20,741 nucleotides of DNA from a virus: IMG/VR virus record IMGVR_UViG_3300021364_000513, positions 1 to 20,741 of that record; one strand, given 5' to 3'. The notes beneath the pieces were generated by a model. The model had not been told where the DNA came from, did not search any database, and saw nothing but the letters and a program-made list of their open reading frames with translations. Positions within the stretch are counted from its first letter, which is position 1. Each line of letters begins with the position of its first letter. The position numbers and the translations under genes were made by a program. Of the stretch, positions 1,460-14,591 are shown in pieces.

Positions 1460-1749
1460 GCTAACCAATCCTTCATTTTCATTAATACAATAGTCTCTCC
1501 TCTATCTTCTCTACACATGACTATATCACAATTACCAAAGGCAAGCCACTTGGGGATATTTTTCCGTCTTTTCGCCTGAATCTTTAGATTCTTCTTACCT
1601 TTCTTTGCTACAATATCCACATCTTCTGTATATCCCATACTTCTACCATCCGATCCCCAAGCGCGCTTAACCTTAAATCCCGCCTTTGATAGTTGTTCTA
1701 CCAACTCTCTTTCATAGGCATTGCCCTTTGTCTTAGATTTACTTGGCAT
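1456..1749 (-). CDS. Hjc-like Holliday junction resolvase / PD-(D/E)XK endonuclease
   Basis: A 97-residue nuclease of the compact archaeal-type resolvase group. The N-terminal basic segment leads into GNAYERELVEQL, with E13 as the first acidic residue. Then come a basic strand (VKRAWGSDG), the DVDIV metal-ligand motif (D45), and the IQAKRRK strand, giving the Q-x-K form of the core at Q58 and K60. The length is slightly below archaeal Hjc. It probably cleaves branched recombination or replication intermediates. It overlaps the GIY-YIG gene by 11 bases upstream and the zinc-ribbon gene by 4 bases downstream. The fold call is strong; junction specificity is inferred from family resemblance. Confidence 0.82.
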   Translation of the reverse strand: MPSKSKTKGNAYERELVEQLSKAGFKVKRAWGSDGRSMGYTEDVDIVAKKGKKNLKIQAKRRKNIPKWLAFGNCDIVMCREDRGETIVLMKMKDWLA

Positions 1750-2143
1750 CTTCTGCTGCCTTTAAAAAACCATTAATGATATCATTAAGTAATTGTTTTG
1801 TTTTTAGGTTACGTTGATAGCAAAATGCTCTAAATCTTTTATAGGTATCTGGATAGATGGTAAGCCTATGCCTGGTAGAGAGTCTGGTGCGCTCCGCACC
1901 TTGACTATTCAGCGTTGGTTTTAATTTTTTAATTAATTTTGCTTCTAAATCATGAGCATATCCAAAAGTAGGTGCAGGCTTTAGCTTTACATAGTCCCAA
2001 TCTTTGATTTCATGCTTGGAAAAACGCTTTCTAATATTGTTGCTTACCCCTACATAGATTATGTTCTTATCCTTATACATGACATAGACACCACAACATA
2101 TAGGTAGATCTTTCTTTTGATTATAGACTTGCCACTTGCTCAT
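1739..2143 (-). CDS. GIY-YIG endonuclease with C-terminal ribbon-helix-helix-like segment
   Basis: A 134-residue protein. Residues 17-80 are a GIY-YIG nuclease domain: GVY at 18-20, YVG at 30-32, the conserved basic run IRKRF near 38-41, E67 in the metal-binding helix and N79 at the domain end. Residues 92-130 read as one strand (RLTIYPDTYKRF) followed by two helices, resembling an Arc/MetJ-type DNA-binding unit. Longer in-frame starts exist, but I chose the ATG at 2141-2143 because it overlaps the TGA of a small upstream gene as ATGA, and because the upstream codons are used by that gene in another frame. It may be a homing-type nuclease or a repair nuclease. Confidence 0.85.
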   Translation of the reverse strand: MSKWQVYNQKKDLPICCGVYVMYKDKNIIYVGVSNNIRKRFSKHEIKDWDYVKLKPAPTFGYAHDLEAKLIKKLKPTLNSQGAERTRLSTRHRLTIYPDTYKRFRAFCYQRNLKTKQLLNDIINGFLKAAEDAK

Positions 2144-2277
2144 GATACCTTTCCCCATAAGTGTTCCATCCATTTCAAATAAAAATGAGTAAATAAAGCA
2201 AACCCTACTCCAATATATAAGACTGACTTTGCTACCTTTTCTAAAATAAACAACCAATCAGGATAAAACTGTATCAT
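2140..2277 (-). CDS. Small single-pass membrane protein, 45 aa
   Basis: Read from the ATG at 2275-2277. A very strong ribosome site, AAAGGAGAT, lies four bases upstream, better than at most genes here. Residues 14-34 form a plausible membrane helix (VAKSVLYIGVGFALFTHFYL), followed by a short tail ending in Trp-Gly-Lys-Val-Ser. The stop overlaps the GIY-YIG start as ATGA. I do not recognise a family. Being first after the only sizeable gap in this operon, it may also serve to load ribosomes onto the nuclease gene. Confidence 0.72.
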   Translation of the reverse strand: MIQFYPDWLFILEKVAKSVLYIGVGFALFTHFYLKWMEHLWGKVS

Positions 2278-3344: not shown

Positions 3345-3543
3345 CCTGTTGTTTTGATTTACCCTGAAACTCACTGACTTTGAGAGAAAGATATTTATCA
3401 CCTTTCTTTGATTCATTTGACCAAGCTGATAAGTTATAGTCCTTACCATTCAGATTGATCTTTCCAGTCATGTGTGGGTGCTTTTCTGTTTTCCTATCTT
3501 GATTTGAAAACAATGCACCTTTATTTGTATTGTCGTAAGCCAC
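3325..3543 (-). CDS. Small SSB-like protein with acidic DDGLPF tip, 72 aa
   Basis: A short protein with two predicted beta segments around a Gly turn (TGKINLNGKDYNLSAW and DKYLSLKVSEF) and a flexible C-terminus ending DDGLPF. That tail resembles the acidic tip of bacterial SSB proteins (DDDIPF in E. coli), which recruits recombination and replication proteins. The body resembles DUF736-type or small OB-like proteins more than full SSB, and is much shorter than the usual 110-180 residues. It starts with GTG at 3541-3543, overlapping the TAG of the nuclease gene by one base, with GGAG eight bases upstream. Its position after the RecB-type nuclease suggests a recombination pair. Confidence 0.7.
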   Translation of the reverse strand: MAYDNTNKGALFSNQDRKTEKHPHMTGKINLNGKDYNLSAWSNESKKGDKYLSLKVSEFQGKSKQQDDGLPF

Positions 3544-4415
3544 TAGGCTGACTCCTTTAATTCCTGCTCTTCTTCTTCTTTTGCTAATGTGAAGGTTGTA
3601 GGTAGGTCTTTTGGAAAAGACGGAGCAGGATTATTATTCGCCCAATCCGAGACTTCTACAACCTTTTTCCAAGTCTGTTCATCTGCTTTGTATTTCTTGA
3701 AGGTATAGTTAGGTTCTTTACGCCATCCTGACTTCAAGTACAAACATGCGATGCCATCAATGGGATGCTCTGGAAATAGAGATTCCCATAAAATCTTATA
3801 TGAGGTTAACTGCAACTGATGTGTGTTATATGGTTTGCCAGTTTTCCAGTCTACAATCCATCTCTCTTCTTCACCTTTCTTATTGACCAGTCTTACTACC
3901 CAATCAGCAGTTCCCGCCCAGGGGTGCAGTTGATTCCCTGATGAGTCTGCTGCAAGATCAAACATACATATCTCTGTAGCTTCGGTTATAAATTCTCCAT
4001 TGATTTGTGAATCTTCACAGAACTTCATAAAAGACATGATATACTTAATCATCTCTCTAGTGATTGGTATCAGTTCATCGGTGTCTTTATTGTGCCATTT
4101 AGGTTGTGCTTCAAAGTCTATCTTTAACCCTAGAAGTAGTCGTTCACAGTAATCATGTACGATTGTTCCAATGGATGCTCGCTTATTTGCGTACTCCATC
4201 GCTGCTTCATAAGTTGGCGAGTTACCTAACCAAGTGTGAAACCCTATACCTTTATCAAGTACATTTTCAAATGTAGTAGATGACCGCTTATATATCATCG
4301 GTGCACCCTTAAAATGTTCTTCCCAATAAGATTCTAATGGTGAATACCACCTTCCATTTGACAGATCATGTCTCTCAACAGGTATAGGTGACTGTAGTAG
4401 TTCCTGCTCTAACAT
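3543..4415 (-). CDS. RecB/Cas4-type PD-(D/E)XK exonuclease
   Basis: A 290-residue nuclease with the RecB-type motif set: GTIVHDYCERLL (H87, E91), GTADWVVRL (D171), IVDWKTGK (D189 and K191, the D-x-K strand) and HQLQLTSYKIL (Q200, Y206, the QxxxY-type motif). It likely acts as a phage recombination or end-processing exonuclease. The start at 4413-4415 has AGAGG about eight bases upstream. It is the second gene of the early operon, 13 bases after the excisionase-like gene, and is translationally linked to the SSB-like gene by a one-base overlap. No annealing protein such as Bet or Erf is seen in the window. Confidence 0.88.
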   Translation of the reverse strand: MLEQELLQSPIPVERHDLSNGRWYSPLESYWEEHFKGAPMIYKRSSTTFENVLDKGIGFHTWLGNSPTYEAAMEYANKRASIGTIVHDYCERLLLGLKIDFEAQPKWHNKDTDELIPITREMIKYIMSFMKFCEDSQINGEFITEATEICMFDLAADSSGNQLHPWAGTADWVVRLVNKKGEEERWIVDWKTGKPYNTHQLQLTSYKILWESLFPEHPIDGIACLYLKSGWRKEPNYTFKKYKADEQTWKKVVEVSDWANNNPAPSFPKDLPTTFTLAKEEEEQELKESA

Positions 4416-4428
4416 ACTATTACCTCTA

Positions 4429-4590
4429 TTATTGTATTATTAAATCGCTTATATCGTATCTCTTTGTCCTGTATCCAAGATTGATTTCTTTGATCTTTCC
4501 TGTCTTTACCCATAGTCTAATTGTTTTAACATGAACACCTAACTCATCAGCAATTTGTTGTGTTGTTAAAAATTTATTTGCTCTTTTCAT
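4429..4590 (-). CDS. xis: Excisionase-like MerR/HTH_17 DNA-binding protein, 53 aa
   Basis: Read from the ATG at 4588-4590 (ribosome site AAAGG a few bases upstream) to the TAA at 4429-4431. The protein is essentially one winged helix-turn-helix: LTTQQIADELGVHVKTIRLW is the helix pair, then the wing with GKIKEINLGYRTKRYDISDL. This is the standard form of small phage excisionases and AlpA-like regulators. It is the first gene of the leftward operon, facing the repressor across 71 bases, so it may direct excision with the integrase or act as the early-side regulator (Cro-like role). The family is clear; excision versus transcription control is inference. Confidence 0.85.
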   Translation of the reverse strand: MKRANKFLTTQQIADELGVHVKTIRLWVKTGKIKEINLGYRTKRYDISDLIIQ

Positions 4591-4603
4591 TACCTTTCCG
4601 TAT

Positions 4604-4640
4604 GTTATTTATCGTTATTTGGATCAATGACTACAAATAA
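4604..4640. promoter_or_regulatory. Operator-like half-sites between repressor and early operon
   Basis: GTTATTT occurs at 4604-4610 and again at 4614-4620, ten bases apart, or one helical turn. TTATTTG at 4615-4621 pairs with CAAATAA at 4634-4640 as a perfect 7-bp dyad with a 12-base spacer. Together they give three half-sites on one helical face in the 71-base divergent region. This is what a repressor operator should look like, and the CI-type HTH gene starts only 21 bases away. Binding is inferred. Confidence 0.6.
4608..4636 (-). promoter_or_regulatory. Candidate leftward early promoter
   Basis: On the minus strand TTGTAG (4631-4636) and GATAAA (4608-4613) are 17 bases apart, each matching four of six sigma-70 consensus bases. 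The pair sits 17 bases from the excisionase-like ATG and is covered by the half-sites at 4604-4640, so repressor bound there would block it. The match is moderate. No convincing rightward promoter for the repressor was found, and its start lacks a ribosome site. Confidence 0.4.
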
Positions 4641-4661
4641 ATTAACTAACAAAAAGTCACA

Positions 4662-5366
4662 ATGCAAGAGAAAAAGTCAGATTTAGATAGAGCGATATAC
4701 AAGTTATATGCCTATTATGATGTTTATACAGATACTGCTTTATCCGAGAAAATGAATATTTCTCGCAGTGCAATATCTCAATGGCGTTATAAAGGGGTTA
4801 TACCGAAAAAGATATTATCAAAGTATGATCAAATAATTTCAGGGGAGAATGAGGAGATAGTAGTTGAGGCAGAGACAATACACATAGCAAAAGGAGAAGA
4901 AAAAGTGGATGCGAATTACATCATAGGACTTCAAAAAGAGAAAATAGAATATCAAAAGGCAGAAATAGATCGATTAAATGCTATTGTTCAAAAAAAACAA
5001 GAAGTGAAAAGTAAACCAGCGTTTCATTTTAAAACAAAATGTACTTACGATTGCGAAACTAAATCTTTTGGTAAAAATACAGTAACTGGAGATACGTCAA
5101 TGACTGGATATACTGAAAGAGAATTATCAGGACTTACAGGCAAGGAATGGTCTATGATGTACCACCCCGATAGTTTAGAAATTTTAATGTCCTCAATTCC
5201 AGATGAAATACCAGACCACTCTCATAATATATGGAAACATATTATGTGGAAAGCAAAGGATGGTTCTTATAAGATGTACAACATTGAATCCTATTACGAT
5301 AAAACAGAAGGGGTTGTTCGTTCTTATTACTACTGGGTCAATGGAGATATTGAAGGGAAGAGTTGA
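4662..5366 (+). CDS. CI-type phage repressor with PAS-like sensor domain
   Basis: A 234-residue regulator. Residues 6-55 match the phage CI repressor helix-turn-helix type (LSEKMNISRSAISQW is the core). Residues 86-112 form a coiled coil (KIEYQKAEIDRLNAIVQ). Residues about 118-230 resemble a PAS_3-type fold: GYTERELSGLTG, then YHPDSLEIL, then a WKAKDGSYKMY strand turn and a final YYYWVNGDIEG strand. No S24 Ser-Lys peptidase motif is present, so RecA-stimulated self-cleavage is not expected. The gene is coupled to the integrase by a four-base overlap. The HTH call is strong and the PAS call good; what it senses is unknown. Confidence 0.85.
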   Translation: MQEKKSDLDRAIYKLYAYYDVYTDTALSEKMNISRSAISQWRYKGVIPKKILSKYDQIISGENEEIVVEAETIHIAKGEEKVDANYIIGLQKEKIEYQKAEIDRLNAIVQKKQEVKSKPAFHFKTKCTYDCETKSFGKNTVTGDTSMTGYTERELSGLTGKEWSMMYHPDSLEILMSSIPDEIPDHSHNIWKHIMWKAKDGSYKMYNIESYYDKTEGVVRSYYYWVNGDIEGKS

Positions 5367-6313
5367 GTCGTATTTCCAAAAGATCTGGCTCAAAATACTA
5401 CTGGTACACTACAGGCACGCCACCAAACAGAATTAGAATATCTACTGGGCAAACCAATCATCATGCTGCTAAAATAAAACAAAAAGAGCTTGATGAAAAA
5501 TATGAAAGGCAGGGTTTGATCGCATCTCCAAACCTTGCCAAGTTTATAGACTCCTATCTTATATGGCACAAATCCAACAAGAAAAAGAACTGGAGTGAGC
5601 GCGTAGAATTTGGTTTGAAACACTTTAAAGAAATGTATTCATCAATGGATATATCCAATATGGACATTGAGCATATACAAGCCTTTAAGGATCATCGCTA
5701 TCAAACTGTTTCTGGTAACACTGTTAACCATGAGTTGTCCATGATCTCTGGATTATTCAAGTATGCACAAATGAGAAGAATGGCATTTAGTAATCCTGCT
5801 GATCCATTCTTTGTTGCGCGCATTGACACTTCTGAGGATGTGAGAAAACCAATACCGATTGATATTATAAAAGAGATTATTCAAACTACAACAGACATCA
5901 AAGATAAAGCGATGTTTAGTCTAGCCTTGTACGCAGGATTTCGCGCACAGGATGCGGGAACGATTACAGAAGATGAGATTCAAGATGAATACTTTGTATG
6001 GAAGCAAGGCAAGGTAGGAAGAAAGTGTGTAGTACCCAAACACCCTATCTTTAATACAATGGATTTAGTTAACCTGAAACCAGAGAAATCAAAGCGTAGA
6101 TCAGTAACACAAAGACTACAAAGGAGATTGCAGGAGTTTGGTGAAAAAGGAGATTATCACAGTATTCGACATACATACGGTGAAAGACTTGAAGAACAGG
6201 GATTAGAATTTCTTGAAGTAAAGTTCCTTATGGGTCATAGGATAGATGATATTACCTGGAGATATATTCACAAAAGTGTAGACAAGTTTAAGCCTGCTAT
6301 ATATAATATATAA
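5363..6313 (+). CDS. int: Tyrosine recombinase (phage integrase)
   Basis: A 316-residue integrase of usual length. The N-terminal 50 residues are a basic arm-binding type region, residues about 55-145 the SAM-like core-binding domain, and 165-310 the catalytic domain. Active-site residues: R194 (AGFRAQD), a Lys at 214 or 217 in the beta hairpin, H266 and R269 (HSIRH), H292 (MGHR) and Y301 (WRYIH). The start is TTG at 5363-5365, overlapping the repressor TGA with an AAGGGAAGAG ribosome site just upstream; the next Met is far inside the fold. It ends immediately before the attP-like region, the normal position for a phage integrase. Confidence 0.95.
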   Translation: MSRISKRSGSKYYWYTTGTPPNRIRISTGQTNHHAAKIKQKELDEKYERQGLIASPNLAKFIDSYLIWHKSNKKKNWSERVEFGLKHFKEMYSSMDISNMDIEHIQAFKDHRYQTVSGNTVNHELSMISGLFKYAQMRRMAFSNPADPFFVARIDTSEDVRKPIPIDIIKEIIQTTTDIKDKAMFSLALYAGFRAQDAGTITEDEIQDEYFVWKQGKVGRKCVVPKHPIFNTMDLVNLKPEKSKRRSVTQRLQRRLQEFGEKGDYHSIRHTYGERLEEQGLEFLEVKFLMGHRIDDITWRYIHKSVDKFKPAIYNI

Positions 6314-6332
6314 TGTGTCATAATTGTGTCAT
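6314..6332 (+). repeat. Left arm-type integrase site pair
   Basis: TGTGTCAT at 6314-6321 is repeated at 6325-6332, an 11-base period. It starts at the integrase stop region. The same pair recurs on the other side of the core. Confidence 0.75.
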
Positions 6333-6417: not shown

Positions 6418-6462
6418 CGGTTTTCAAGACCAGTGCATTCAGCCAGACTCTGCCACCCCTCC
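6418..6462 (-). pseudogene. 5' half of a tRNA-Ser(UGA) gene, the attP core
   Basis: Read leftward from 6462, the sequence opens with GGAGGGG (acceptor 5' strand), TG, a D-arm closed by GCA and TGC, then an anticodon arm with loop CTTGAAA, giving anticodon TGA at 6426-6424. The similarity to bacterial tRNA-Ser(UGA) stops after the anticodon 3' stem; no normal variable arm, TTCGA T-loop or full acceptor 3' strand with CCA follows. The anticodon stem carries a C-A mismatch and a T-G pair. It is therefore not a standard complete tRNA but fits the tRNA identity block of an attachment core. Confidence 0.7.
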
Positions 6463-6491: not shown

Positions 6492-6510
6492 TGTGTCATT
6501 TTTGTGTCAT
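6492..6510 (+). repeat. Right arm-type integrase site pair, overlapping lysozyme gene end
   Basis: TGTGTCAT at 6492-6499 is repeated at 6503-6510. The pair overlaps the last codons and stop of the lysozyme-like gene (coding Met-Thr-Gln-Lys-stop), so the late operon ends inside the attachment site. Confidence 0.75.
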
Positions 6511-7347: not shown

Positions 7348-7431
7348 TTAATAACCCATTCTCCTTTTTATGGATCTTTTCTTCTTCATGGGTTTTTTCT
7401 TCATGCTTTTTTTCTTCTTGTGATATGGCAT
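7348..7431 (-). CDS. Lysine-rich micro-protein, 27 aa
   Basis: Read from the ATG at 7429-7431. The peptide is mostly Lys and Arg, with repeated KKK blocks separated by Met or Pro, and ends Met-Gly-Tyr. A strong ribosome site (AGGAGAG) lies just upstream within the end of the DUF5872 gene, and the start shares its A with that gene's stop (TAATG). Similar tiny polycationic proteins occur in other marine phages as far as I recall. It could neutralise packaged DNA or be a protamine-like peptide; this is inference. Confidence 0.6.
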   Translation of the reverse strand: MPYHKKKKSMKKKPMKKKRSIKRRMGY

Positions 7432-7820
7432 TATTTTGCTCTCCTTACTTTTCTTGCTATAGATTTACTATATTTTGCTTTACCCTTTCCCCTGGCAGAT
7501 GCTGCTCGTTTTCTTTTGTTCGTAGCAGCTTTTTGACTGGAACTGAGACTTTTCCTAACTGACTCAGGTAGGTAACGCCCTCTTTTCTTTTTTGGTTTTT
7601 TCTTATCGCCTTTACTGACATAATCCCACTTTTGTTTTGACCATTTAGTAAGTTTATTTTTTGAAGATTTCTTTCCAGAGTATCTTCCTCCCATTTCCTT
7701 GTAATACTTTACTGCAAGTTGCATTGCTCTTGCAGAGTGTTTACCACCCATCTTACGCTTTGCTTTTGCTTTTGCTCTTGCCCACTTGGCAGGATCTCTC
7801 TTTCTTGCAGTTGTAGCCAT
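7431..7820 (-). CDS. DUF5872-family basic protein, 129 aa
   Basis: A highly basic protein matching my memory of DUF5872: DPAKWARAKAKAKRKMGGKH near the N-terminus, then YYKEMGGRYSGKK, TKWSKQKW, the RGRYLPESVRKSLS motif, and a Lys/Arg-rich end with KYSKSIARKVRR. The family has no known function; the charge suggests DNA binding. A GTG two codons upstream is possible, but the ATG at 7818-7820 is preferred because it overlaps the upstream stop as TAATG and has AAGGTGAAG in front. It sits next to the DUF6321 protein. Confidence 0.82.
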   Translation of the reverse strand: MATTARKRDPAKWARAKAKAKRKMGGKHSARAMQLAVKYYKEMGGRYSGKKSSKNKLTKWSKQKWDYVSKGDKKKPKKKRGRYLPESVRKSLSSSQKAATNKRKRAASARGKGKAKYSKSIARKVRRAK

Positions 7821-8107
7821 TACCACTTCACCTTATGCGACCAATACCTTGCTGATAGCTTACTAGGCTTTGCATCTTGTGCATTATGTCTTGCATAATA
7901 CGATCTACGTCTTGCTTTTTCCTTTGCTGATTTAGGGTTTTTACCCGCACCTTTAACACCTTGTTGACCAAAGCGTATGGTTTTGATCTTATCCCCTACC
8001 TTTGCAACCACTACATGTGATTTTTTAGGATGATTTGGTGTTCTTTTTGGTTTATTGTAACCAGTAACACCTACTCTGGCAAGTCGTGGATCTTTCTTTT
8101 TACGCAT
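7820..8107 (-). CDS. DUF6321-family basic protein, 95 aa
   Basis: The protein fits the DUF6321 pattern well: RVGVTGYNKPKRTP, then HPKKSHVVVAKVGDKIKTIRFGQQGVKG split over a short strand pair, a RRRSYYARH segment and the C-terminal ARYWSHKVKW. The family is found in phages and has no assigned function. The His, Lys and Arg content and its basic neighbours suggest nucleic-acid binding or DNA condensation. It begins at the ATG of a TAATG overlap with the 58-residue gene and ends in a second TAATG overlap with the DUF5872 gene, so the genes are read as one translational unit. Confidence 0.85.
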   Translation of the reverse strand: MRKKKDPRLARVGVTGYNKPKRTPNHPKKSHVVVAKVGDKIKTIRFGQQGVKGAGKNPKSAKEKARRRSYYARHNAQDAKPSKLSARYWSHKVKW

Positions 8108-9932: not shown

Positions 9933-12900
9933 CTATTGATGGGATGATTTTCCATTGTTGTAATTTTTTAATACTTCTGATGCTGATAGTTCTTTTGAGT
10001 ATACTCGAGCCTCATCGATAATACCTTTTGTATAAACCGCTCCATCTTTTCCAATCATTAAATCTGCACCAAGATTTTCCATTGACACATAAGAGCCACC
10101 TGAAACATCTGTATCACTTACGACTGAACCATTTATATATAGATTTATACCATTTTGAGCATTTGTGCCACCAGTTCCATCATAAGTTGCTACCACATGA
10201 ATCCATTGACCTGAAGATAGTGCAGTATTAGATTTTTTTCCTCGATATGTAGCAGACAGACTTTCATCATAGATAGTAAGATTTAATTTATCGCTACCAT
10301 CTGTATAAAAATTATATTCAGCACTAATATTGTATTGCCCTTTTGTAAAAATCATAAAACTTGATGGGTCATCCATTTTTATCCATGCTTCTAAACTAAA
10401 TGGTCTATCATCAGTACCATCTCCAAAACTCAATATCTCTGAATCTTGTATTTCTATATACTCACTTCCATGTAATCGTATGCCATTACTAATCGTAGTT
10501 GTATCTGATAGATAGTAGCCTTGATTATCTCTGCCTTCTGTGCTTCCTTCTGGGATGAGTATACTTACTGGTGAACCAGATGCAGTACCATCGTTGTAAC
10601 CTATTATACTTGCACCACTTACCGTACCGTCATTGTTATTAGATGTCTGGTCTTGTATAGTAGATGCAGTATCTCCTGTTCCAGCACCCATTAAGTAACT
10701 GGCTACACAATTGCTAAACTGTGAATGTCCAGATATACTGGAGCGTTTATCTATAGCATATAGTTCAGATATTTCACTTGCTGTTAATGCAACATTAAAA
10801 ATATTACATCCAGCAATTTGACCATTAAAATATTCACCTGGAGTTGCATCTCCATGCCTTCCTACAGATATAACACTTAACGAAGATGGATAAGTAGTTG
10901 CACCTATTCCATCTGTTACAGTTGCTATTAAACTACCATCAACATAAACCTTTCTATCTGTATCGGAGGTATATACAACAACAGCGTGATGCCAATTACC
11001 ATCATCATATCCAGAGCCTTGTGCACCCGCATTTGTTCCACTATTGGTTCGTATCCATGCTCTAATTCCTCCATCTTCAATACCTATTGCTAACCAATTA
11101 TTAGCACTTGATGGGTTATATACTCCAAAAATAGCATCACTTATTCCAGTAGTTGATGCCCGAGTCTTAAACCATGCAGATAGAGTTATTGGATAATCAG
11201 TTGGTATTCCAGTTGCAGATGTTTTTGCTATATAATCATCCGTATTATCAAAACTCGCTACTCCTGTATTTGCTCTATCAGTCCAAGTAGTATTGCCATC
11301 ATTACGCCAATACCCTACAAGGCTATCAGAATTATCGTAGTTGCCAGAATCAGATGTAGGTAGTAAAGGTACACCAGAGTTATATAGTTGAGACATAGCA
11401 TCGGAATCAAGAACTACATCCCAATATGCTACTTCATTGATTATACCATCGAATCTATTACCAGTCTGTGCTCTACCTATAATACCTGTACTGACAGTAT
11501 AATCACTATTATCACTTGTCGTTCCAGATGCAACTCCATCAATATAATATGTCCCTGTTGAAGTTGAATAATCTCTTGTGTAAGCAATATGATGCCAAGT
11601 ATTTACTGATACTGTTCCTGTACTATCAGTCTCATCTAAAACACTTTGCTTACTTGCTTGTATCTTTCCATTTGTTTCAATAAAAAAACAAAAACTATTG
11701 GTATTTCTTCCTACAACTCCCAACCTATTATCAAGGTCATTGATATAAATCCATGCAGAAAAAGTAAAATCATTTGTTCCAAATGTTAATGCTGAACTTG
11801 CTACGTCATCTAAAACAAATTCATCATCTACATCATCAAACACCATCGGAGTATTAGAGCGTACCAAACTTGCTTGGTAGCCATATTCTTCACCAGTTAC
11901 CCAAGTTGCTCCAGATATCGTTCCATGATTCTGATTACCACTACCATCATATATATAACTGCCAGAACCTTCTTGCATTGGTAGGTGTAACTTTAGATTA
12001 GATGCAGATACTCCAGTAGGCAATACTGTTTCTGGTTTGGTGTATAGTTCTCGTACTTGGTCTTGAGTTAATTCACTATTAAATATTTTTACATGATTAA
12101 TTTTTCCATCAAATGGTCTATATATATTTGAAGTAGCACCATAACTACTAATTCTTAATCGTTGTGGTGAGGGAACGCTATTATTAAGCCAAGTAAGGCT
12201 GTTTGTTCCTACATTTAAACCATCTAAATATATAGTTGAACCAGAACTTGTAGATACGACCACAAGATGATGCCACTTTCCAAGAGTTATTGCAGTATCA
12301 GAAAGCCAATAACGGGTAGTTGTATCAAAAAAGTAATATTGTATCTTATTATTGGTACTATCTAATTGAATACCCCAATAGATTGTATCATAACCCATTA
12401 AAGTATCTTTTTCAAATACCGAAGTACCATTAGCAGTAATGGAATCACAATTAAACCACATTGATACTGTTTTTGGCATATTCCATTCACTACTATTTGG
12501 AATATCTACTTTATCGTTTGCACCATCAAAATCCAATGCCCTTCCAGAGTACACCTCGCCAAAGTTTAATGGGTCTACTACGCCATGTGGTGAATATGTG
12601 TATCCTGTGTTAACAGTAGCACCATTGTTTGTACCATGATTACTACCTTCTAAATCATTATGAGGATTTGAACTACTACCCATATCATACCAAGATACCA
12701 GATTAGTCTTTAGGTCTGCTGATAAGCCAGAGTATTTCTCTGCAAACATCAACTCTTGTATTTGAGATTGGGTTAGTGCGGATGAGTGGATAGCGACATT
12801 TGCCATTTTTCCATTAAAATGCCTATCCATTCCACCTTCCCTTGCTCCAATAGTAAAAGAAACATTATCATTGTCTATTGCTCCAGTTCCAGAATTTGTA

Positions 12901-14591
12901 GAATCAAGCGAACCATTTACATAGGTTTTTAAATTAGAACCATCATAAGTCGCTGTAATATGATACCATACATTATCAGATAAAGCACTACCAAGACCAC
13001 TTCCGCCTTTAGCAACACCACCAGAATAAATATTCCAGAATAACTTATTTGATGATATACCTAATTCAAAATTGCGATTAACATCATCATCTCTACCCAT
13101 TAGGAATTGTGTTGCTGAACCTGAATCAAATTTTACCCACATACTCAATGAAATATTGCTTGTAATATCTAAAGAAGAATCATCTCCTAAATCTATATAA
13201 TCATTACTTCCATCGAAATCAGTAGAACCATCGGCTAATTGAACAGCCATCTTTGGATTTGCCTTGTCTTGAATACGAGGTTTAAATGGTGATTCTCCAG
13301 AGTAGGAATCGGAGTTTGTGGTTGCCCCTTCTATCGTACCATCATTACTACCTTGAGAATCAGGCGCACCAGCACCAATACGCTTTAGAGAAACATTATC
13401 TATATAATATGAATTTCCTGATACATTACTTCCAAGTTGTAAAACAGTACCAGTAACTGTTCCACTTCCAGTTGTTGTAAAATCAAGTGTTATCTTCTCC
13501 CACTCGCCTATTCTAACGCTTTGTTCATAGTCAAGCAATGTACCACCACCATCTAAAGTAGATGCAGTTCCACCTCCTGTTTGATGAGTAATCTGTATTG
13601 TGTTTCCAGTTACTCCATAAACATAAAATTCAAGTCTATAGGAAACGCTTCCAGTTACGGAAAAAGTCTGTGCTACTCCACTTCTACTACTTGCATTAGT
13701 TTTAAATAGTAATGAATGAGTACCAGCAAATGCTTGTGTAGAACTCCTTTCATGGATTGAAAGTGTACCGTAACCTGTTGTCCAATCTTCAGGGAAACTG
13801 GAATATCCACCCAAACTGGATGCAGTTTCCATTGTACCATTTGAGATGACTTCAGCACCTAAACCAGTGGTGCTACTTAAGTCATACCAGGAAACAAGGT
13901 TAGTTAGTTCTGTATCTTTCAGTTCTGAATGGCTACCTCTCCAGTAGATAGATTCTACCTCACTTGCTGATAAGGCTCTATCCCATATACCTACGTTTGA
14001 AATACGACCTTTTGCATAATGATTATTATATCTTCCTATATATGCAACAGCACTTGTATTTACTAATGCTGTATATGAACCAAAACCACCTTTATCATTT
14101 GGTTCATAATAAACTCCATTTACATATAATTTTATACCATTATGAGCAGAAGTACCGCCACTACCATCATAGGTTGCTATAACATGAGTCCATTTATTCA
14201 ATGTATTAGACATTGCACTATTATGACTTCCATATTGATAAGAAGAACCACTATATAGATACAAAGTTATACCATTACCACTTGCTACAAATCTAATTTC
14301 TCCAGTTGATGGGTAAATTCCCTTACTAAATATTGCAAAATTGTTTGTATCTCCTGTTTTTACCCAAGCAGATATTGTAAATGCTGAATCAGTAGTACCA
14401 TCTCCAAATGATAAATTATCTGCATCTGCTATAGATATAAAATCATCAGTCCCATCAAAGGATGTACTACCATCTAATAGGAAGTCTGGAGAGTTATCTT
14501 TGAAAGGATAGTATAATTTTAATCCATTGCGTACAAAGGATGCTGCTGCCCTGCCTAATCTAACAAGACCTAAACCAAGTCCTAAACGCAT
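9933..14591 (-). CDS. Giant LamG-repeat adhesin, probable tail fibre/receptor-binding protein, 1552 aa
   Basis: Six concanavalin-like LamG_3 domains are seen, starting near residues 40, 455, 685, 910, 1110 and 1370. Each has an opening FDG..D(Y/F)I-type strand, a W(V/F/I)K or WI strand near residue 30, a W(T/H)H(V/L) strand, (L/Y)Y(V/I)NG or equivalent, and a closing alpha turn with a SA/TQ-S-E/Q pattern. Residues about 243-408 look like a carbohydrate-binding jelly-roll domain (CBM_4_9 type). The N-terminus is short and likely the virion attachment end. It probably binds host surface glycans. It follows the spike base gene. Domains 1 and 6 are most alike. Confidence 0.85.
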   Translation of the reverse strand: MRLGLGLGLVRLGRAAASFVRNGLKLYYPFKDNSPDFLLDGSTSFDGTDDFISIADADNLSFGDGTTDSAFTISAWVKTGDTNNFAIFSKGIYPSTGEIRFVASGNGITLYLYSGSSYQYGSHNSAMSNTLNKWTHVIATYDGSGGTSAHNGIKLYVNGVYYEPNDKGGFGSYTALVNTSAVAYIGRYNNHYAKGRISNVGIWDRALSASEVESIYWRGSHSELKDTELTNLVSWYDLSSTTGLGAEVISNGTMETASSLGGYSSFPEDWTTGYGTLSIHERSSTQAFAGTHSLLFKTNASSRSGVAQTFSVTGSVSYRLEFYVYGVTGNTIQITHQTGGGTASTLDGGGTLLDYEQSVRIGEWEKITLDFTTTGSGTVTGTVLQLGSNVSGNSYYIDNVSLKRIGAGAPDSQGSNDGTIEGATTNSDSYSGESPFKPRIQDKANPKMAVQLADGSTDFDGSNDYIDLGDDSSLDITSNISLSMWVKFDSGSATQFLMGRDDDVNRNFELGISSNKLFWNIYSGGVAKGGSGLGSALSDNVWYHITATYDGSNLKTYVNGSLDSTNSGTGAIDNDNVSFTIGAREGGMDRHFNGKMANVAIHSSALTQSQIQELMFAEKYSGLSADLKTNLVSWYDMGSSSNPHNDLEGSNHGTNNGATVNTGYTYSPHGVVDPLNFGEVYSGRALDFDGANDKVDIPNSSEWNMPKTVSMWFNCDSITANGTSVFEKDTLMGYDTIYWGIQLDSTNNKIQYYFFDTTTRYWLSDTAITLGKWHHLVVVSTSSGSTIYLDGLNVGTNSLTWLNNSVPSPQRLRISSYGATSNIYRPFDGKINHVKIFNSELTQDQVRELYTKPETVLPTGVSASNLKLHLPMQEGSGSYIYDGSGNQNHGTISGATWVTGEEYGYQASLVRSNTPMVFDDVDDEFVLDDVASSALTFGTNDFTFSAWIYINDLDNRLGVVGRNTNSFCFFIETNGKIQASKQSVLDETDSTGTVSVNTWHHIAYTRDYSTSTGTYYIDGVASGTTSDNSDYTVSTGIIGRAQTGNRFDGIINEVAYWDVVLDSDAMSQLYNSGVPLLPTSDSGNYDNSDSLVGYWRNDGNTTWTDRANTGVASFDNTDDYIAKTSATGIPTDYPITLSAWFKTRASTTGISDAIFGVYNPSSANNWLAIGIEDGGIRAWIRTNSGTNAGAQGSGYDDGNWHHAVVVYTSDTDRKVYVDGSLIATVTDGIGATTYPSSLSVISVGRHGDATPGEYFNGQIAGCNIFNVALTASEISELYAIDKRSSISGHSQFSNCVASYLMGAGTGDTASTIQDQTSNNNDGTVSGASIIGYNDGTASGSPVSILIPEGSTEGRDNQGYYLSDTTTISNGIRLHGSEYIEIQDSEILSFGDGTDDRPFSLEAWIKMDDPSSFMIFTKGQYNISAEYNFYTDGSDKLNLTIYDESLSATYRGKKSNTALSSGQWIHVVATYDGTGGTNAQNGINLYINGSVVSDTDVSGGSYVSMENLGADLMIGKDGAVYTKGIIDEARVYSKELSASEVLKNYNNGKSSHQ
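10144..10206. repeat. Degenerate long direct repeat with 14131-14193 (adhesin domains 6 and 1)
   Basis: The stretch aligns without gaps to 14131-14193. By hand I count 51 of 63 identical bases. It encodes the same part (the ATYDG(S/T)GGT segment) of the last and first LamG domains, so these two arose by duplication more recently than the other copies. Confidence 0.7.
14131..14193. repeat. Partner copy of the 10144-10206 repeat
   Basis: Same orientation, in the first LamG domain of the adhesin gene. See the partner entry for the alignment. Confidence 0.7.

Follow-up and report, generated by a model that had tools for sequence, protein, structure and literature searches.

A putative CI-type repressor with a PAS-fold sensor in the slot of the S24 peptidase, in a virus most likely infecting Candidatus Marinimicrobia

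The window, i.e., the whole stretch of DNA analyzed here (20,741 bp, linear), comes from an incomplete virus record. It contains a gene for a putative immunity repressor located between two divergent operons, with an excisionase-like HTH_17 gene and an exonuclease gene on one side and an integrase gene on the other, which is the position of a lysogeny switch (Table 1). The succession of divergent HTH_17 gene, repressor and integrase was recurrent across the relatives of this locus, which were gathered by integrase search. Counterparts of the small divergent gene matched HTH_17 in L047, L070 and L049 (7e-8 to 2e-7). The first-pass annotation had placed the repressor in a translationally coupled operon with the integrase, and the overlap is real: the TTG start at 5363 falls within the TGA stop of the repressor (5364-5366). 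This overlap was found in many relatives and was replaced by a short gap in others, and the conserved integrase N-terminus of the relatives begins at the equivalent of this TTG. An inverted-repeat search for operators in the AT-rich intergenic region revealed nothing prominent.

Table 1. Features of the repressor locus and their coordinates in the window.
Feature	Position	Strand	Basis
HTH-coil-PAS putative immunity repressor (234 aa)	4662..5366	+	ORF including stop; profile and model evidence
CI-type helix-turn-helix, residues 1-59, variable immunity module	4662..4838	+	Pfam, AlphaFold model
Coiled-coil linker, residues 84-116, junction region of module exchange	4911..5009	+	Model helix, alignments
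PAS domain type A, residues 119-228	5016..5345	+	Pfam PAS_3, AlphaFold, Foldseek, VIA
Tyrosine integrase, TTG start overlapping repressor stop	5363..6313	+	Pfam Phage_integrase 7.5e-11; PHROG integrase 1.7e-29; start conserved in relatives
Divergent 53-aa HTH_17/MerR-type protein, excisionase/Cox-like	4429..4590	-	ORF; counterparts match HTH_17
Divergent intergenic region (71 bp), presumed promoters/operators	4591..4661	.	Changes together with HTH; operator unresolved
PD-(D/E)XK exonuclease of divergent early operon	3543..4415	-	Pfam PDDEXK_1 3.6e-6; PHROG exonuclease 2.8e-16
attP core (44 bp), downstream of integrase	6419..6462	tRNA sense on -	Identical to 5' half of Marinimicrobia tRNA-Ser(UGA)

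Some other genes were observed around this locus. The window encodes a GIY-YIG nuclease-like protein at 1739-2257 (-) (Pfam E 8.1e-8), two adjoining small and very basic proteins rich in Lys and Arg at 7431-7826 and 7820-8107 (-), and a protein of 1552 aa at 9933-14591 (-) in which several LamG-like repeats can be seen by eye, possibly a host-contact protein. A DNA methyltransferase-like gene present nearby in L010 (2952-4037) is missing from the window.

The attP core was searched against genome contigs with two positions left free. This search returned 17 contigs, mostly of Candidatus Marinimicrobia or marine MAGs with the identical sequence; among the 17 were also four Coriobacteriia contigs, three with other letters at the free positions, and one labelled Dehalococcoidia. 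Based on this tRNA match, the host of the phage is most likely a member of Candidatus Marinimicrobia, which are uncultured ocean bacteria. The attP is common to the window, L013 and L054, with one difference in L054. Also, TGTGTCAT occurs at 6314-6332 and 6492-6510 of the window as an 11-bp-spaced pair on either side of the attP core, and comparable pairs surround the cores of L013 and L054; these are likely arm-type sites of the integrase.

The repressor itself had been read at first pass as a CI-type helix-turn-helix joined by a coiled coil to a PAS_3-type fold, and the domain analysis agrees with each part of this description. In the AlphaFold model of the window protein (mean pLDDT 75.5), the N-terminal half forms a four-helix HTH (residues 2-18, 24-31, 35-44 and 49-59), and the joint is a single long helix. 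The window protein matched Pfam Phage_CI_repr only weakly (E 0.014); the curated cut-off of this family was passed by the relatives L005 (E 2.1e-5) and L006 (E 1e-5), so that the CI/Cro-type HTH expected of CI-type repressors can be considered present. The HTH of L019 and L020 is instead of the HTH_3 type (E 1.3e-7 and 6.7e-10); therefore type A sensors, as we call the PAS_3 group of the window protein, sit on more than one HTH family.

Residues 121-225 were modelled as an alpha/beta domain in which two strands are followed by helices and then by three more strands, the order of PAS domains, and the mean pLDDT across residues 121-220 was about 84-94. The predicted structure thus shows the arrangement by which a PAS fold is recognized, a sheet of five strands in which helices separate strand 2 from strand 3. 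Nearly all of the best 50 Foldseek matches listed against the PDB were PAS or LOV proteins, and VIA-align superposed the domain on PAS structures with Z up to 11.7 and an rmsd of 2.0 over 98 aligned residues. The best structural match of the window protein in BFVD was A0A516M3Q0 (E 1.5e-7). At the sequence level the signal was fainter. A Pfam scan of the whole window protein gave no PAS match; the C-terminal half alone matched PAS_3 with E 1.4e-4 and 22.5 bits, below the curated cut-off of 25.6. Six of eight relatives also matched PAS_3 (best E 2.9e-5), all scans remaining under the Pfam cut-off, and a PDB sequence search with the window protein found nothing significant. The dN/dS of type A sensors was 0.10-0.25, which indicates purifying selection and argues that this domain is not there by chance, although the Nei-Gojobori values are rough at high dS. 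The PAS domain showed no motif for a ligand or a cofactor. Light and redox state had been listed at first pass among the possible signals. No Cys is conserved in type A sensors, so that the flavin-binding Cys of LOV photoreceptors is lacking; light sensing of the LOV type and redox sensing of the Fe-S type are both disfavored on this ground.

As for the peptidase, the absence of an S24 Ser-Lys dyad inferred at first pass held: PF00717 was not detected in the window or in seven related virus records (up to 38 kb), in a search whose control was positive in 10 of 14 genomes. The window protein consequently lacks the Peptidase_S24 domain with Ser-Lys dyad that marks the LexA/CI family, and this domain was found in the repressor slot of two relatives. 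In L054 the slot protein carries Peptidase_S24 (PF00717, E 3.6e-10) where the window has PAS, and in L086 the corresponding match has E 7.2e-13. Synteny between the L054 locus and the window extends to either side of the repressor, where the DNA is 70-74% identical. The catalytic Ser and Lys positions of the L054 peptidase align with LexA (we infer that the LexA chain in this alignment is a Ser-to-Ala mutant), whereas in L086 the Lys position looks, by eye, like a Gly. As judged from these alignments, "PAS in place of S24" is literally true at the window/L054 locus, because a syntenic relative with the same attP has a genuine Peptidase_S24 at the PAS position; which of the two came first is undetermined. 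An S24 protein, mostly of LexA-like size, was over cut-off in 192 of 245 Marinimicrobia genomes. The SOS machinery is thus probably available to the host, and the PAS domain is not used for lack of it.

The search for homologues with the HTH-coil-PAS order in other integrase operons, suggested in the first-pass annotation, did yield relatives, and their C-terminus proved variable. The repressor-slot gene has a constant HTH-coil base on which the C-terminal domain differs. Apart from type A, comprising the window protein and its relatives, we distinguished type B (L047, L049, L050, L053, L070, L072, L073, L075, L076, L078, L079, L080, L089, L092), type C (L051, L052, L068, L069), type D, which is Peptidase_S24 (L054, L086), a tentative type E (L074, L084), and type F, consisting of HTH and coil only (112-116 aa, upstream of the integrase; L087 2166-2501, L088 1447-1794). 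A PAS fold was likewise predicted for type B (mean pLDDT 86.4; best VIA Z 9.6, against a PAS domain; best Foldseek E 1.5e-3). Profile comparison linked type B to type C (prob 95). With the coil removed, it gave no significant similarity between types A and B (prob 4.4), whose sequence identity of 22% is close to that of shuffled controls (21%). That types C and E are PAS domains as well is an inference made without models. No sensor relative was found by tblastn of cultured phages and plasmids, nor by a search of genome contigs; in the data examined, the sensor family comes from uncultivated virus records alone, with distant cousins in host genomes.

Comparison of the relatives revealed identical HTHs carrying unlike sensors (100% identity for L016, type A, vs. 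L075, type B, and for L051, type C, vs. L070, type B). The HTH identity was 95% for L004 (A) vs. L051 (C) and for L018 (A) vs. L068 (C), 92% for L005 (A) vs. L050 (B), and 81% for the window (A) vs. L049 (B). Conversely, related sensors were found on unrelated HTHs. Within type A, the sensor was more conserved than the HTH in 52 of 55 pairs, and the median HTH identity was at the level of shuffled sequences (22%). DNA alignments place the boundaries of these exchanges. Between the window and L011, identity was 88% upstream, dropped to 48-51% over the start of the excisionase-like gene, the intergenic region and the HTH, and rose again to 90% in the sensor and to 99% in the integrase, which on the DNA level is an exchanged immunity part between conserved flanks. 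The reverse was seen in window/L049, L013/L050, L051/L070 and L016/L075, where the immunity part is 80-99% identical and the sensor has been exchanged (30-44%); for example, the two parts are 80-90% and 33% identical between the window and L049, and 95-99% and 30% between L013 and L050. Taken together, these comparisons show that the HTH and the sensor are, at the sequence level, two separately exchangeable modules in this group of phages.

Sensors related to these were also detected in host genomes. With the type A profile (E about 1e-7), an XRE-HTH-coil-PAS protein was found in 3 of 245 Marinimicrobia genomes (L040-L042), the HTH of L040 being of the HTH_19/HTH_3 type. The type B profile matched host proteins more strongly, down to 1.7e-23. 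L098, L100, L102 and, more weakly, L103 contain host HTH-coil-sensor proteins of type B. In L099 (1465-2577) and L101 (1501-2583), the type B sensor is appended C-terminally to a NarL/LuxR-type response regulator beside a histidine kinase, as assigned by reading the sequence; these would be unusual two-input regulators. No integrase was present beside the host sensor proteins in the short loci that were fetched, and these HTH-coil-sensor and response-regulator proteins therefore look chromosomal, prophage remnants not being further excluded.

The reading that we favor, and consider probable, is that the window gene encodes the immunity repressor of a temperate Marinimicrobia phage, with an exchangeable PAS sensor in the S24 slot. 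It is supported by the predicted folds, the locus architecture, the exchange of modules, the S24 domain in the same slot of relatives, purifying selection and the host relatives of the sensors, all of them established by computation; repression, dimerization, ligand binding and induction are inferred, and an influence of the signal on integration, raised at first pass, is conjectural. According to this model, the CI-type HTH would recognize operators within the 71 bp that lie between the promoter of the repressor-integrase operon and the divergent early operon of excisionase and exonuclease, and the coil and the PAS domain would dimerize the repressor. A host-derived signal bound by the PAS domain would then alter the grip of the repressor on DNA, in a direction that remains undetermined. 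Such a signal would do the job of RecA-triggered S24 cleavage in classical repressors, the ligand leading to induction.

PAS domains can also serve solely as dimerization modules. The protein could thus be an immunity repressor whose PAS domain is only a dimerization or docking part, induction being due to its binding by another protein, encoded by the phage or the host, such as a Tum- or Qtip-like antirepressor, with no small ligand. As far as the sequences tell, sensing is not obligatory in the slot, since L087 and L088 have the HTH and coil only, and an A-B identity at the shuffled level is what one would expect of a domain that has to maintain no more than its shape or a docking surface. 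Also, the PAS domain of VqmA is needed for dimerization as well as sensing (PMC8284805). However, the type A sensor is far better conserved than its own HTH, beyond the need of a plain dimerizer, both sensor types have relatives in host regulators, including response regulators for type B, and no linked antirepressor gene was identified, albeit without a systematic search. We hold this alternative to be unlikely, without dismissing it.

More doubtful still is the possibility that the gene only regulates integration and excision through the integrase and the excisionase-like gene, immunity being conferred by another gene beyond the 20.7-kb record. The tight overlap with the integrase, the adjoining HTH_17 gene and the incompleteness of the record would suit such a regulator, and a second repressor outside this linear record cannot be excluded. 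Nevertheless, L054 and L086 have the classical architecture of a repressor, HTH plus Peptidase_S24, at this slot; neither the window nor the related records of up to 38 kb yielded an S24 protein; and the exchanged unit (HTH, intergenic region and start of the divergent gene) behaves as immunity regions do. Finally, an accidental resemblance to PAS of some unrelated alpha/beta fold of unknown use would be compatible with PAS_3 scores that all stay under the Pfam cut-off, but the profile, the predicted topology, Foldseek and VIA concur, and the sequence-unrelated type B likewise models as PAS, so that this idea retains hardly any credit.

Retaining the repressor with an exchangeable PAS sensor, we further propose a combinatorial lysogeny switch, in which two modules are shuffled independently, one for immunity (HTH, operators, start of the excisionase-like gene) and one for induction (S24, PAS A, PAS-fold B, C and others). 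Phages of the same immunity would then answer different signals, through sensors borrowed from, or sharing signals with, host regulators. For this broader hypothesis the balance is even at present. The signal that rouses the virus from dormancy may itself have been exchanged in the course of evolution. To our knowledge, the triggers of open-ocean prophages are largely unknown, and most knowledge comes from SOS induction. The interchange of S24 and PAS-type sensors on one DNA-binding base offers a natural experiment on induction signals, the sensor domains common to host regulators point to candidates for the inducing signal, and the question of what a prophage "listens" to would become testable by domain swaps in a laboratory phage. 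Induction cues other than SOS are recognized for prophages (PMC10194989). In the open-licence literature searched, we came across no description of a CI-type phage repressor with a C-terminal PAS domain, and VqmA was the only phage PAS regulator.

Compared with known systems, the window repressor resembles lambda-type CI and LexA by its N-terminal CI-type HTH (for CI), its C-terminal regulatory domain and its lysogeny-switch position. It differs in carrying, like most of its relatives, a PAS-fold domain but no S24, and RecA-stimulated self-cleavage is for this reason not expected. In P2 and 186, the repressor and the integrase share one operon, divergent from a small HTH gene (cox or apl). The window likewise sets a repressor-integrase operon against a divergent excisionase-like HTH gene, as in the C-int/cox layout of P2. 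However, the C protein of P2 lacks a distinct sensor domain and 186 CI is switched off by Tum, whereas the window repressor has a PAS domain attached. With VqmA of phage VP882, in which PAS both dimerizes and senses (PMC8284805), it shares the features of a phage-encoded transcription factor with PAS and HTH and, as inferred for the window repressor, a non-SOS route to induction. Nevertheless, VqmA has its PAS first and a LuxR-type HTH last, an order reversed in the window protein, where a CI-type HTH comes first and the PAS is fused to the same protein. Also, VqmA is not itself a repressor: it activates the antirepressor Qtip, which acts on a separate CI (PMC12802170). The XRE-coil-PAS regulators of Marinimicrobia hosts (L040-L042, and L098, L100, L102 and L103 for type B) have the same HTH-coil-sensor order and related sensors, but they are apparently chromosomal and without an integrase alongside, unlike the window repressor. 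The kind of protein is a known one, a CI-type repressor, and the new element is its exchangeable induction module.
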